Source: Candidatus Woesearchaeota archaeon
GTDB taxonomy: Archaea > Nanobdellota > Nanobdellia > SCGC-AAA011-G17 > GW2011-AR20
NCBI GenBank assembly: GCA_018303005.1
Contig: JAGVYY010000009.1
Location: 1 to 37,269, forward strand
Length of the DNA stretch: 37,269 nucleotides
Direction: 5' to 3'
A program made the position numbers and the translations under genes. The notes below the pieces were generated by a model that saw nothing but the letters and a program-made list of their open reading frames with translations, made no database searches and had not been told where the DNA came from. Below, piece after piece: positions 2,744 to 17,981 of the stretch; the stretch's first letter is position 1, and the number at the start of each line of letters is the position of its first letter.

Positions 2744-3787
2744 TTATTTAATAACCAAATTTTTATTAACTTTTGTTAGAATTTCTTTTTTGCTTTTTAA
2801 TACATAAACTGAATCTTCTATCCTTACTCCGATTCTTCCCTTGTAGTAACCCGGTTCTATTGTATAAACTGTATTTTCTTTTAATTTATCCCTTGATAGC
2901 TCTTTTAAATTTGGGAATTCATGTATTTCAATTCCTATTCCATGGCCTAGACCATGTATAAAATATTTACCTAGTTTATTCTTAGCATTGATAAATAATT
3001 TAGAACAAGAAATTGTTTTTGATTTTATTGATTCTTTATTTACATCTAGAACTTTATTATAAATTTCAATCTCTTTTTTATCTGATTTTCCTATATAAAT
3101 TGTTCTTGTAATGTCTGAGCAATAATTTTTGTATTTAACACCTAAATCAATAACTGTAAATCCATTTAGTTTTTTATTTGTTGAAAGATGATGTGGATTA
3201 GAGGAGTTTATTCCGGAAGCTACAATGGGAGGAAATGAAGGTTCTAAATTCAATTTTTTAATTTCATCTTCAATAAATTTTTTTACTTGAAGTTCTGTTT
3301 TATTTTTATTGCAATAATTAATCGTTTTTTTCATTATTAAAGAAGAGAAAGAACAAGACTTTTTAAGTAGTTTAATTTCTTCTTCTGTTTTTACAGATCT
3401 TAGCTTTAACAGAGACCTAGAAATATCAACAAATTTTGCTTTCAATTCTTTTTTTAATAATCTATATTGGTTTAGAGTTATGTTATTCTTGTTTATTGCA
3501 ATTTTCTTTCCTTTTACCAATGATTTTAATTGTTTTAACGGTTCTTTATTAATCTTGAATATTCTTTTAATTCTTGAATATTTTTTAGCTATTGAATATT
3601 CTAAATTTGAGACCTGTAAGAATGGTTTTTTAGTTCCGGGGATTATTAGCAGAGAATAAACTGCCATTGATTCAGGGATTTGTGTAAAATAAGTAAAATT
3701 GTGGTCTATGGACTTTTCTGAATTTAATAATAAGCAGTAATCTATTTTTTTGTTTTTTAAATAACTCTGAAACTCTTTTATTCTCAT
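2744..3787 (-). CDS. Xaa-Pro aminopeptidase family protein (M24)
   Basis: A 347-residue cytoplasmic metallopeptidase of the M24 'pita-bread' fold, which typically removes residues before proline. The N-terminal creatinase-like domain covers about residues 1-125 and the catalytic domain the rest. Metal ligands are visible: Asp in TVIDLGVKYKNYCSD and its second Asp in SDITRT, His in HGLGHGIGIEIHE, Glu in YTIEPG and Glu in GVRIEDSV. Length matches prolidase/PepQ enzymes. Its start overlaps the stop of the upstream M29 gene by four bases (ATGA), so the two are translationally coupled, pointing to shared work in peptide breakdown. Confidence 0.88.
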   Translation of the reverse strand: MRIKEFQSYLKNKKIDYCLLLNSEKSIDHNFTYFTQIPESMAVYSLLIIPGTKKPFLQVSNLEYSIAKKYSRIKRIFKINKEPLKQLKSLVKGKKIAINKNNITLNQYRLLKKELKAKFVDISRSLLKLRSVKTEEEIKLLKKSCSFSSLIMKKTINYCNKNKTELQVKKFIEDEIKKLNLEPSFPPIVASGINSSNPHHLSTNKKLNGFTVIDLGVKYKNYCSDITRTIYIGKSDKKEIEIYNKVLDVNKESIKSKTISCSKLFINAKNKLGKYFIHGLGHGIGIEIHEFPNLKELSRDKLKENTVYTIEPGYYKGRIGVRIEDSVYVLKSKKEILTKVNKNLVIK

Positions 3788-4734
3788 ATTAAAAATTTTC
3801 CATCTTTCATTATTATATTATGTTCTGTTTTTATCGTTGGTTTAAACAGGATACAATCCAAATGCACGGTTGAATACACTTCTCCACCCATAGCAGCTGC
3901 ATTTCCATAAGCTATATGTACAGTTCCCTTGCATTTCTCATCTTCAAGTATATTCCCAATTACCTTTGCTTTATAGTTTGTTCCTATTCCTAACTCTGCA
4001 ATATTAGTGGCATTCTTTACTGTGTTAAAAATTTTTGATAATCTTGACTTTTTGTCTGAGATGTAAACAACTGTATTGCTTTTGACTATTAATCTTGTCT
4101 TAGGCTTACAATAAACAGCATCATCATCCTTAAAGGAATCAATTATGATAATCCCATTAGTTTTATTCTCATCTGGCGCTATATAAATTTCTCCTGCCGG
4201 TAAATTGCTTTCTTCCTTGTTTTTATGCACTATTCCGAGGTCTGGTTCCCATTTTCTTTTTGTTGTTGAGAATGTTATGTCAGCTCCAGATGGAGTAGTT
4301 ATATGAATTTTTTTAGATTTGTCCAGTATGTGCTTTAACTTTAATGTTAATGCATTCATCTTTTTATAATCAATATCTATAATCTGCATAACTTCTTCTG
4401 TTATTCCGGGAAGTGTAACTGCCCTTGCCCCTTTTTTACAAGCATTTACCCTTGCTTTAGTATGCGTCAGAGACATTGTTGTAGGGCATATAAGAATATT
4501 ATAATGCAACATTTCCCCAGCAACTTCTTTTGGCGGCTCTTCTCCATGAATTTTGCCAACAGGGATAATTATTAATTTTACCTTATCGGTTATTTTCTTT
4601 GCTTGTTTTTCTATCTCTCTTGCTATTGTTAATTTATTTTTATCTGTTATAATTAAAACTGATTCATTTTTCTTAACATTTAAGCAGGTTCTGACTAAGA
4701 TTCTTGCTGGATTTTTTATATTTATTAATTTCAT
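3784..4734 (-). CDS. Aminopeptidase T-like metallopeptidase (M29 family)
   Basis: A 316-residue protein resembling the leucyl aminopeptidase/AmpS (M29, COG2309) family, which hydrolyses N-terminal residues using two metal ions. Supporting segments are NLPAGEIYIAPDE (conserved Glu of the family), AELGIGTNYKA, the following EDEKCKGTVHIAYGN, and STVHLDCILF with His-x-Asp. It is a little shorter than typical members (about 360-410 residues) and the N-terminal half is less conserved, so catalysis is not certain. It is the first gene of the minus-strand operon; a TATA-like aatatataaac lies at about 4758-4769, with the ATG some 28 bases downstream, consistent with a nearly leaderless transcript. Confidence 0.78.
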   Translation of the reverse strand: MKLINIKNPARILVRTCLNVKKNESVLIITDKNKLTIAREIEKQAKKITDKVKLIIIPVGKIHGEEPPKEVAGEMLHYNILICPTTMSLTHTKARVNACKKGARAVTLPGITEEVMQIIDIDYKKMNALTLKLKHILDKSKKIHITTPSGADITFSTTKRKWEPDLGIVHKNKEESNLPAGEIYIAPDENKTNGIIIIDSFKDDDAVYCKPKTRLIVKSNTVVYISDKKSRLSKIFNTVKNATNIAELGIGTNYKAKVIGNILEDEKCKGTVHIAYGNAAAMGGEVYSTVHLDCILFKPTIKTEHNIIMKDGKFLI

Positions 4735-4899: not shown

Positions 4900-5688
4900 T
4901 TATTTTCTACATGTAATAACTGTCTTTTTTACACACTCAGTTATCAGATTGTAGCTCCCATTTTCCATTAGGAAATCGTGTAATTTCCCTGTAAAACTTC
5001 CTGGACCTGCCACAAGATTGTAGATTTCCTCTCCAGTCATTCCTCTTCGCAAATTATTTGCAATCCCCTCAAGAGTTGCGGCATACATGATTCTTGCATC
5101 TTCTCTACTCAATCCATCTAAAGAGTTTATTTTGTGCTCTATTGCTTTTGCTATTAAACCTGTATCACAAGCAATCCAAGTCCTATCTGCCAAAACACCT
5201 TCTTCTACCTCTCTTGCTGAAACTCCAAAAATGTATTTCACAGCAGTTTCATCTTCTCTAATTTTTTGAGAGCCAAATGTATATGCAGCCACTTCATCAT
5301 ATACAGAAATACCAGTTATTACTCTACAAACTCTTGAATCAGTAAGAATCTTCTCTATTTCTGCTATGCCCTTTGCTGCTGCAAGGGAGATTACCAACTT
5401 ATCTTTAGTATGATATTTTATCTCATTACATACTTCGTCAATAAGATATGGCTTTACGCTAAGAACCACAACTTCAGAATTTTCAACAGCATAGCAATTG
5501 TCATTGGTAACTTCAATCTTATATTGCTGTTTTAGATATTCTAGCCTTTCTTGATCTCTTCTTGTTGCAATTACTTTTTGGTGTCTTTTTCTAATGAGAG
5601 AATCAACCACTGCAGTTCCTAACCTTCCTGCGCCTATTACAGAAATAGTTTTATCTCTCAGAAGGAATACAACCATCGGTATTCCCAA
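4900..5688 (-). CDS. proC: Pyrroline-5-carboxylate reductase-like protein
   Basis: A 262-residue NAD(P)-dependent reductase expected to make proline from pyrroline-5-carboxylate. The Rossmann start TISVIGAGRLGTAV is at about residues 14-27, then VVVLSVKPYLIDEV and LVISLAAAKGI, all typical of P5CR. The C-terminal helical domain carries GMTGEEIYNLVAGPGSFTG, which stands where P5CR has its SPGGTT segment and departs from it, so a related imine reductase is possible. The track start is TTG (5688); an ATG at 5676 gives a more usual N-terminus. Neither has a well-placed Shine-Dalgarno. A 29-codon ORF with a strong one (5651-5740) overlaps the start in another frame and could feed into proC by a +1 step. 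The long leader suggests regulation. Confidence 0.8.
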   Translation of the reverse strand: MGIPMVVFLLRDKTISVIGAGRLGTAVVDSLIRKRHQKVIATRRDQERLEYLKQQYKIEVTNDNCYAVENSEVVVLSVKPYLIDEVCNEIKYHTKDKLVISLAAAKGIAEIEKILTDSRVCRVITGISVYDEVAAYTFGSQKIREDETAVKYIFGVSAREVEEGVLADRTWIACDTGLIAKAIEHKINSLDGLSREDARIMYAATLEGIANNLRRGMTGEEIYNLVAGPGSFTGKLHDFLMENGSYNLITECVKKTVITCRK

Positions 5689-5740
5689 AAGCTTCTATGC
5701 TTCCTCCTTCAAATTCTTCCATTCTTTGGTCTAATCTCAT
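5651..5740 (-). CDS. Small ORF overlapping the proC start, strong ribosome binding site
   Basis: Twenty-nine codons from an ATG at 5740 with GGAGGAAATAAA directly upstream, the best Shine-Dalgarno in the neighbourhood. It begins MRLDQRMEEFEGG and ends CIPSER, stopping with TAA at 5651-5653 inside proC, where the two frames overlap by 38 bases. A +1 step anywhere between 5651 and 5697 would continue it directly into the Rossmann strand TISVIGAG of proC. It may therefore be a coupling leader peptide, the true N-terminus of proC, or a mark of a single-base error. The peptide itself is not recognisable. Confidence 0.5.
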   Translation of the reverse strand: MRLDQRMEEFEGGSIEAFGNTDGCIPSER

Positions 5741-5800
5741 TTTATTTCCTCCGTTATGTTCTTTAGAAAATATCCTGATACATCTTAAGAAGACAGGACA

Positions 5801-5827
5801 AAAAATGATGGAGGCACTATTGTGCCT
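5801..5827 (-). promoter_or_regulatory. Attenuator-like hairpin and T-run in the proC leader
   Basis: On the minus strand AGGCAC (5827-5822), a four-base loop AATA and GTGCCT (5817-5812) form a perfect 6-bp stem, followed within a few bases by CATCATTTTTTG. The stop codon (TAG) of the upstream leader ORF starts inside the loop and its last base begins the 3' arm, so a ribosome that finishes the leader would cover the hairpin. The layout is that of a transcription attenuator; this function in an archaeon is inference. Confidence 0.45.
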
Positions 5828-5897
5828 GTGCGGGTTTGGGAGAATTGGATTTATTAAAATCAGAAGTTACAATTTCTAAATTTATTCTCTGAGCCAT
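5817..5897 (-). CDS. Putative proline-containing leader peptide for proC
   Basis: Twenty-six residues from an ATG at 5897 to a TAG at 5817-5819. A TATA-like ctttaaat (5921-5928) is 27 bases upstream, so the ATG would sit at the transcription start, as in leaderless archaeal mRNAs. The peptide starts MAQRINLEIV, contains SDFNKSNS and then Pro-Lys-Pro encoded by CCC AAA CCC, directly before the hairpin. Proline codons in a leader ahead of proC suggest starvation sensing, but two Pro codons are few. The 25-bp block coding SDFNKSNS recurs with two mismatches at the start of hisG. Confidence 0.45.
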   Translation of the reverse strand: MAQRINLEIVTSDFNKSNSPKPAQAQ

Positions 5898-5952
5898 AAT
5901 AATATACAAAACGATTATCTATTTAAAGTTTTCTGAAATTTTTTAAAAATGT

Positions 5953-6005: not shown

Positions 6006-6428
6006 ATGGAACCTACTAACGTTAATATCTGGGAAGAAGATGCCTCTGTGAAGGATTTCTTTACTGTTTGCTGCGAGTTAAGGTTTGTTAGACATGATTA
6101 TTGTGGCAAGTTCGGCATCGAATCTATTGATAATGAGGATATATCTTATAAGCTAGCCCATATTGCTATGGGCCAAGAAGGTTACCAAAATTATGAGCAG
6201 GGATGGTTAAGCTTTAGTATTGATAATAAAAACCTTGAAGAGTTAGTATTTTTTTCAGTAAAAGAAAAAAACGGAAAAATTGCTTATAGAACAAATGTAA
6301 TTGTAGAAAACAAAAGAGGATACATCCGAGACCTGAACTATTATCTCACAAAAAATAGGCTATGTGATTTTGATTCAACATATTCAAAAATTTTTAAATT
6401 AACATTTACTGTAACGAGGTTTTCTTAA
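6006..6428 (+). CDS. Hypothetical protein, 140 residues
   Basis: I do not recognise this protein. It is soluble-looking, acidic in its first third (NIWEEDASVKDFF), with scattered cysteines (TVCCELRF, HDYCGKF) that do not form a clear zinc motif, and a run of likely beta strands in the second half (GWLSFSID, ELVFFSVKEKNGKIAYRTNVIVENKRGYI). It is a monocistronic, leaderless-type unit with its own palindromic promoter element. Its last 23 bases overlap the 3' end of tgt on the opposite strand. The real start is well supported by the TATA spacing. Confidence 0.6.
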   Translation: MEPTNVNIWEEDASVKDFFTVCCELRFVRHDYCGKFGIESIDNEDISYKLAHIAMGQEGYQNYEQGWLSFSIDNKNLEELVFFSVKEKNGKIAYRTNVIVENKRGYIRDLNYYLTKNRLCDFDSTYSKIFKLTFTVTRFS

Positions 6429-16514: not shown

Positions 16515-17981
16515 ATGATTAAAGAAGAGAAGAAAGGAATAACAGTAAAGAAAGACCAGGATTTTAGTGAATGGTATACTCAAGTTGTACAAAAGGCTGA
16601 ATTAGCTGATATAAGGTTTGGTATACAGGGTTTTATTGTACATAGACCATTTGGATTCTTTATTATTAAAAAGATTTATGAATATTTAGAAAAAGAAATA
16701 GAAAATAACGGACATGTAGCCTTTTTATTCCCTAGTGTTGTAAAGGAAGAGAATCTGAGAAAAGAAAAAGAACATGCTGGTTTTACTCCAGAGGTATTTT
16801 GGGTAAGCGAAGCTGGAGATAAAAAACTAGAAGAAAGATTTGCTTTAAGACCAACTGGAGAAGCTCAAATTTATCCTTTATACAGCATATGGTTCAGAAG
16901 CCATAAAGATTTACCTTTTAAAGGTTATCAGTCAAGAATATCTGTTTTCAGAAACGAAATGACTACTAGACCTTTTTTACGAGGTAGGGAATTTTTATTT
17001 TTTGAAACCCATGATGTTTTTAATACTCATGAAGAGGCATTAAAACAGATTGAAACAGATTTGATGATTTGTAAAAAAATTATTTATGATAAGCTGAAAG
17101 TACCATTTTTATATTTTAAAAGACCGCAATGGGATAAATTTAAAGGTGCTGATGATACATTTACGCCAGATACAATAATGCCGGATGGTAAGAGAAATCA
17201 ATTAGCTTCCACACATGATCTTGGAAGGAATTTTGCTAAAGCATTTGATATTAAAGTTATGAAAGAGAATGAAGAGATGGAATATGCATGGCAAACCTGT
17301 TTTGGTCCAGGAATATGGAGAACTACAGCAGCTTTAATTGGAATACATGGTGATGATAAAGGTTTAATTTTACCATTTGATATAGCGCCAATACAGGTAG
17401 TTATAATCCCTATTCTCTTTTCTGACAAAGATAATAAATTAGTCATTAAGAGATGTGAAGAGATAAAAAATAGATTAAATAAATATCGAGTTAAATTCGA
17501 TAATAGTGAAAATTCTGCCGGATATAAGTTTAATGAATGGGAGTTAAGGGGTGTTCCTATTAGGATAGAAATAGGACCAAAAGAGGTAAAAGAAGATAAA
17601 ATTACCTTAGTCTTAAGGATTAATAAAAATAAAATAAATTTTAAACTAAAAGATTTAAAAAAAGAAATTGAAAAATACTCCAAATCAATAGATGAAGAAA
17701 TAAAAGAAAATGCTGATTTATATTTTAAAAATAAAATGAAATCTGCTAATTCATATGTGGAATTAAAAAAAATAATTAAGGAATACAGAGGTTTTGTTAA
17801 AGTTCCTTTTTGTTCTATTAAAATGGATGGAGCGGAATGTGCTGAGAAATTAAAACAAGATACAACAGCAAATGTTTGTGGTGTTTTATATCCAAAAGAA
17901 GATAATGTTAAAGAAGGATTGAAATGTATAGTATGTGGGGAAAAAGCGAGCCATATTGTATATGTTGCTAAAAGTTATTAG
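16515..17981 (+). CDS. proS: Prolyl-tRNA synthetase, archaeal/eukaryal type
   Basis: A 488-residue class II synthetase that attaches proline to tRNA-Pro in the cytoplasm. Motif 1 and the family start YTQVVQKAELADI, the motif FALRPTGEAQIYPLYS, motif 2 RNEMTTRPFLRGREFLFFE, and motif 3 region GPGIWRTTAALIGIHGDDKGL are all present. There is no bacterial INS editing domain. The C-terminal zinc-type domain has PFCSIKMDGAEC and CIVCGEKA, and the chain ends in Tyr, both marks of the archaeal/eukaryal type. TATA-like atttaaata is centred some 26 bases before the ATG (leaderless). Confidence 0.95.
   Translation: MIKEEKKGITVKKDQDFSEWYTQVVQKAELADIRFGIQGFIVHRPFGFFIIKKIYEYLEKEIENNGHVAFLFPSVVKEENLRKEKEHAGFTPEVFWVSEAGDKKLEERFALRPTGEAQIYPLYSIWFRSHKDLPFKGYQSRISVFRNEMTTRPFLRGREFLFFETHDVFNTHEEALKQIETDLMICKKIIYDKLKVPFLYFKRPQWDKFKGADDTFTPDTIMPDGKRNQLASTHDLGRNFAKAFDIKVMKENEEMEYAWQTCFGPGIWRTTAALIGIHGDDKGLILPFDIAPIQVVIIPILFSDKDNKLVIKRCEEIKNRLNKYRVKFDNSENSAGYKFNEWELRGVPIRIEIGPKEVKEDKITLVLRINKNKINFKLKDLKKEIEKYSKSIDEEIKENADLYFKNKMKSANSYVELKKIIKEYRGFVKVPFCSIKMDGAECAEKLKQDTTANVCGVLYPKEDNVKEGLKCIVCGEKASHIVYVAKSY

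Follow-up and report, generated by a model that had tools for sequence, protein, structure and literature searches.

The question raised by this locus is what the bases between a TATA box and a proC-family gene (pyrroline-5-carboxylate reductase) do in an archaeon. The window, i.e. the whole stretch of 37,269 nucleotides analysed here, belongs to contig JAGVYY010000009.1 of a Candidatus Woesearchaeota archaeon. A first-pass annotation had described a TATA box 27 bases before an ATG, a 26-residue ORF with CCC AAA CCC near its end, a perfect 6-bp stem that includes the stop codon of this ORF, a TTTTTT run and a second ORF with a Shine-Dalgarno (SD) sequence overlapping the proC start. It had read this layout as a bacterial-type attenuator controlling proC in response to proline. 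All of these elements are present (Table 1). The proC product matches TIGR00112 with an E value of 2.6e-28, yet stays under the trusted cut-off, and P5CR_dimer with an E value of 3e-5. Our results make it probable that the leader exerts proline-responsive leader-peptide control as such, leaving aside whether a +1 ribosomal slip is involved. The most conserved element of the leader is one whose conservation the annotation had missed, the Pro codon of ORF2 at the +1-frame overlap with proC.

Table 1. Features of the proC leader in window coordinates
Feature	Position	Strand	Remarks
TATA box CTTTAAATA	5928-5920	(-)	centre 27 nt upstream of ORF1 ATG (5897)
ORF1 leader peptide MAQRINLEIVTSDFNKSNSPKPAQAQ	5897-5817	(-)	26 codons, leaderless; stop TAG 5819-5817
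Hairpin A AGGCAC-AATA-GTGCCT	5827-5812	(-)	perfect 6-bp stem, loop AATA; overlaps ORF1 TAG
T6 run 3' of hairpin A	5805-5800	(-)	not conserved beyond base composition
Hairpin B (TCCTG...CAGGA)	5773..5798	(-)	weak; between ORF1 and ORF2
SD GGAGG of ORF2	5752-5748	(-)	7 nt upstream of ORF2
ORF2 leader peptide MRLDQRMEEFEGGSIEAFGNTDGCIPSER	5740-5651	(-)	29 aa; overlaps proC start, proC in the +1 frame
Decision site TGGT-TGT-ATT-CCT	5663..5675	(-)	NTT precedes the Pro codon
proC-family gene	4900..5676	(-)	ATG 5676 overlaps ORF2; own SD: none seen

The leader was followed through the relatives of ProC. Five close relatives (44-66% identity) were found among 371 genomes of the phylum, and an alignment query against GTDB contigs returned the same five and two more (MAGs of Candidatus Woesearchaeota, with one labelled simply 'archaeon'), while a single-protein query of these contigs gave no match. 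Two distant ProC relatives with about 30% identity, L056/G178 and L011/G189, carry the leader as well. The architecture is thus common to 10 proC loci (the window, seven and two) in Woesearchaeota-type (DPANN) genomes, whose ProC proteins are 28-66% identical, and it comprises a TATA box, a leaderless ORF1, Pro codons at the ORF1 end, a hairpin at its stop and ORF2 before proC. Several further proC genes in the phylum are without such a leader. Mapped on the ProC tree, the leader requires three changes over 34 rows as compared to 8.8 with shuffled labels. It is important to note that the loci are kin, so that the shuffle and codon-usage tests overstate their independence. No relative was found in viral contigs, and plasmids gave only distant proC genes (below 60% identity). 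Rfam at gathering cut-offs reported two tRNAs in the window and left the leader unmatched, either as a T-box or as another known RNA family.

The distance of 27 nt from TATA box to ATG is, by its spacing, that of a leaderless archaeal mRNA promoter, and a TATA-like box lies at about the same distance from ORF1 in the relatives. In the window CCC AAA CCC occupies codons 20-22 of ORF1 (CCC at 5840-5838 and 5834-5832), and Pro occurs near the end only. This holds generally: in 11 ORF1s (the ten proC loci and L085) 27 of 99 codons are Pro in the final nine positions versus none of 162 in the preceding ones, and without L011 and L085, which were found by motif, the counts are 22/81 versus 0/136. 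Typical peptides end in PTPAQ, PMPAQ, PTPGQ or PAVPAE directly before the stop. ORF1 is accordingly enriched in the codons of the amino acid that would be regulated, as leader ORFs of attenuators are. Conservation of the leader ORF and its Pro codons among relatives, which the annotation had proposed as a check, was borne out at all ten loci.

Could such an arrangement have arisen by chance, as fortuitous open frames and a fortuitous hairpin in a 5' region rich in AT? Of 278 short ORFs preceded by a TATA box in the whole genome, seven have two near-end Pro codons and a stem at the stop, a point in favour of chance; only the proC leader is of the full ORF1 type. Conservation at ten loci, confinement of Pro to the ORF1 end and the presence of the ORF2 motif ahead of further proline genes already contradict this explanation, which we regard as extremely improbable. 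A covariance model built from hairpin A and the ORF1 end found the leader once per genome wherever the match was confident. One match, L063 (G126), was rejected, as its position looks antisense to a gene. The weaker match at L085:1501-1544 (G150:C15) looks real: the ORF1-type leader MEKQVLSKRCVLPSVSPAPAQ, with its stop and the stem GCGC-AATAA-GCGC, precedes a 105-residue glycine-rich hydrophobic protein and no known proline gene. It is the sole ORF1-type leader that does not stand before proC.

Classical transcription attenuation would require hairpin A and the T-run to act as an intrinsic terminator that is blocked by a ribosome stalled at the Pro codons of ORF1. All loci do have Pro codons beside a hairpin over the stop, T6 in the window is matched by T6-7 in L032 and L036, and poly(U) terminates archaeal RNA polymerase (PMC8116511). 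Hairpin A exceeds chance in the window (p 0.002) and over 11 loci (Fisher p 7e-5), being modest individually. A hairpin at the stop recurs among the relatives, with zero compensatory pairs in fixed columns, because the register is shifted in divergent members (L032 GGGACAA/TTGTCTC, L036 GCCGG/TCGGC, in L056 beyond the stop). The T-run, by contrast, stays within the length expected from base composition, both in the window (p 0.20) and at every locus (p >= 0.09), and its longest stretch is 2-4 bases at 7 of 11 loci; an intrinsic terminator with a T-run between leader and gene is therefore not a shared feature. Hairpin B is unremarkable in the window (p 0.28) and significant over 11 loci (Fisher p 8e-5), where its sequence differs, and no conserved antiterminator or alternative pairing between hairpins A and B could be established among the loci. 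A candidate hairpin C immediately 5' of the proC ATG was spotted by eye. With an unremarkable T-run and a hairpin A that lacks covariation, conservation carries the hairpin-terminator reading only partly, and we consider it rather unlikely. As the conserved core of the leader, then, the specific bacterial layout suggested earlier finds no support.

The SD of ORF2 is GGAGG in nine of ten proC loci (GGAGA in L011), and the ORF2 peptide closes with the conserved motif (D/G)-C-(I/L/F)-Pro. At the decision site of the window the zero frame meets a stop three codons past Pro, and the +1 frame, beginning TTC CTT, enters proC. The core TGRT-NNN-NTT-CCN is present in 20 of 20 sites at 16 loci; 8 of these sites came from a search pattern in which part of the motif is fixed, and the other 12 were found without it. 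For these 12 sites the T at the wobble position of NTT has a probability of 10^-4.75 under local codon usage, which is optimistic given the relatedness of the loci. The zero-frame stop usually follows 1-8 codons past Pro (at most 8 codons in 18/20 sites). Read from TTC, the +1 frame continues into proC, into proB or into a gene for a winged-helix protein; where no enzyme gene is directly fused to the leader, as in six cases, this frame is open over 26-44 codons (combined p 0.0013). At the level of sequence, then, a nearby zero-frame stop is combined with a +1 frame that is open into the product, as at frameshift sites. Alternatively, RTGRT, which would be complementary to AUCAC at the 3' end of 16S rRNA, could be an SD-like element. 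A possible pairing between UUCC and the ORF2 purine tract was weighed by eye and dropped, because NTT-CC also persists in leaderless members that lack the tract.

A pattern search of 371 genomes, with matches inspected and targets checked by NCBIfam, placed the ORF2 signature before a proB-proA-proC operon in L213 (proB E 6.9e-65), before proB in L200 (E 2.9e-32) and L242 (E 2.6e-23), and before proline-tRNA ligase in L240 (E 6e-66). The probability of four such matches before proline genes is, as a rough estimate, about 1e-7. In its own reading frame, proB of L213 has neither an ATG nor an SD. At L010/L210 the leaderless peptide MKATKSDCIPC ends at its stop and is followed in the +1 frame by a second copy, GGCFPC; the +1 frame of this second copy in L210 is a winged-helix gene immediately upstream of proC. 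The signature also stands before winged-helix genes in L211 and L204; those of L210 and L211 have a Pfam match. Thus, the ORF1 type is linked to proC, with L085 as the exception, and the ORF2 type to proC, proBAC, proB and proline-tRNA ligase, i.e. to genes making or charging the amino acid whose codons the leader contains. This distribution and the conservation together lend strong support to the earlier suggestion that proC is under proline-linked leader control. A second pattern search (80 genomes) added no convincing site.

L210, L211 and L204 have two tandem signature copies, and two +1 steps lead to the small winged-helix protein; in L211 and L204 this gene is followed by proteins without a family match. 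In L200, L240 and L242 the +1 frame past the first site again has a near-end Pro codon (VIPKWSL, VPRIN and GVPGRLFLANNINNI, each followed by a stop). In the window itself the proline-tRNA ligase gene (16515-17981) has a leaderless-type promoter and no Pro leader by eye.

How would the Pro codon of ORF2 act on proC? NTT-CCN, a near zero-frame stop and an open +1 frame are features of +1 shift sites with a slow A-site codon. The slip to UUC would be perfect for TTT, would need a wobble pair for CTT and would leave one mismatch for ATT; the ATT sites speak to that extent against it. A further point against the slip favours instead translational coupling, in which the overlapping ATG or GTG (ATG 5676 in the window) would be the true proC start, the region around it would be opened by translation of ORF2, and a stall at the Pro codon would modulate initiation with no frameshift. 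An NTG is aligned in the +1 frame in 20/20 sites, 18 of them having ATG or GTG (in L035 it comes one codon later), which is the pattern that a genuine start codon would give, and the zero-frame residue at this place varies (D, S, G, R, Y). Coupling is also known for overlapping genes in archaea, which likewise have an upstream ORF that extends over the start of the gene behind it. However, according to a review, coupling is most efficient when the spacing is -4 to +3 and declines steeply as the overlap grows (PMC12548453). The zero-frame overlaps in these leaders vary between about 20 and about 90 nt, so that stop and start are not close to each other. Moreover, the overlapping start has no SD, and coupling leaves the invariant wobble base of NTT-CC unexplained. 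In L011 the aligned place reads TTG ATG TAA, with TAA immediately before the slip codon, yet the frame is open thereafter into proC. ORF2 of L011 ends in LDVIPC before its stop without overlapping proC, and proC there has an ATG with its own SD. We regard coupled initiation as possible though somewhat doubtful. The long and variable overlaps and the TAA of L011 support the +1 shift, and a starvation-triggered slip at the Pro codon, favoured over coupled initiation on these features, has in our judgement about an even chance of being correct. The broader proposal, that shortage of prolyl-tRNA may cause a +1 shift at the conserved Pro codon and thereby production of proline-pathway proteins (ProC, ProB or the winged-helix protein adjoining proC), is a tentative one that falls a little short of even.

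It could also be argued that ORF1 and ORF2 are arrest peptides or small proteins sensing another signal, e.g. metal or redox state via C-x-P-C, with proline genes as coincidental targets. The C-I-P-C sequence resembles a CxxC motif and the L085 leader stands before an unrelated protein, but Pro is invariant where Cys is variable, and proC, proB, proBAC and proline-tRNA ligase are the targets. We consider sensing of a non-proline signal very unlikely.

The surroundings of proC are worth describing. Queries with E. coli ProA and ProB detected no homologue in the genome of the window (about 1.0 Mb, 83% complete), so ProC may act on pyrroline-5-carboxylate from elsewhere; this weighs against the proposed control. 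An aminopeptidase of the M29 type and a prolidase-like peptidase of the M24/creatinase type are encoded on the same strand 3' of proC (2744-4734), and the neighbourhood may be one of proline salvage. Divergent from the leader, a 140-aa ORF at 6006-6428 (+) has no Pfam or NCBIfam match.

Taken together, we propose that the roughly 250 bases before proC would function as a ribosome-read control leader, with proline as the presumed signal. The leaderless mRNA would begin at ORF1. When charged tRNA-Pro is scarce, the ribosome would stall at the Pro codons at the ORF1 end and cover hairpin A, keeping the RNA open and transcription and translation coupled. Ribosomes loading at the SD of ORF2 would then arrive at the NTT-CCN site. 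With plentiful proline the Pro codon would be read, translation would stop three codons on and no ProC would be made; with low proline the Pro codon would wait in the A site and the P-site tRNA could slip by +1, from NUU to UUC, into the proC frame.

If this is true, a proline leader read by the ribosome in DPANN archaea would mean that leader-peptide control is not only bacterial. Within the open-licence literature searched, a paper of 2021 described archaea as without any known mechanism of transcription attenuation or antitermination (PMC8448881), and a review of the same year listed a single proven archaeal frameshift, of the −1 type (PMC8211752). Functional hungry-codon frameshifting was without a known example in a review of 2016 (PMC5009743), a statement for which the proC leader offers a direct test. 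The slip would, if real, be such a functional hungry-codon frameshift as well as a cellular +1 programmed frameshift in archaea. TGRT-NNN-NTT-CCN can serve as a search motif for further leaders of this kind in small, uncultured genomes.

With the bacterial attenuators (trpL, hisL, pheL, ilv) the proC leader shares a short leader ORF, codons of the pathway amino acid near a hairpin and a position upstream of the biosynthetic gene. It differs in being archaeal, in its leaderless mRNA, in having the hairpin on the stop codon itself and no conserved terminator; moreover, a further leader ORF overlaps the gene in the +1 frame. In the mgtL and mgtP leaders of Salmonella mgtA and mgtCBR, proline codons of a leader ORF control the downstream transcript, as is proposed here; unlike the proC leader, these are bacterial, belong to magnesium genes and are based on Rho or a terminator. 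The +1 frameshift of Ty1 (CUU-AGG-C) is similar in that the slip occurs in the P site during the wait for a scarce tRNA at the A-site codon, although there it is a rare arginine tRNA in yeast and no nutrient is sensed. The autoregulatory +1 frameshift of prfB (release factor 2, CUU-UGA-C) likewise has a P-site NUU before a slow A-site codon and a zero-frame stop nearby, and the shortage is relieved by the enzyme encoded in its +1 frame. In the proC leader the slow codon would be proline rather than a stop and the SD-like spacing is different, and the slip, deduced from sequence, would lead in the same way to the protein that is in demand.
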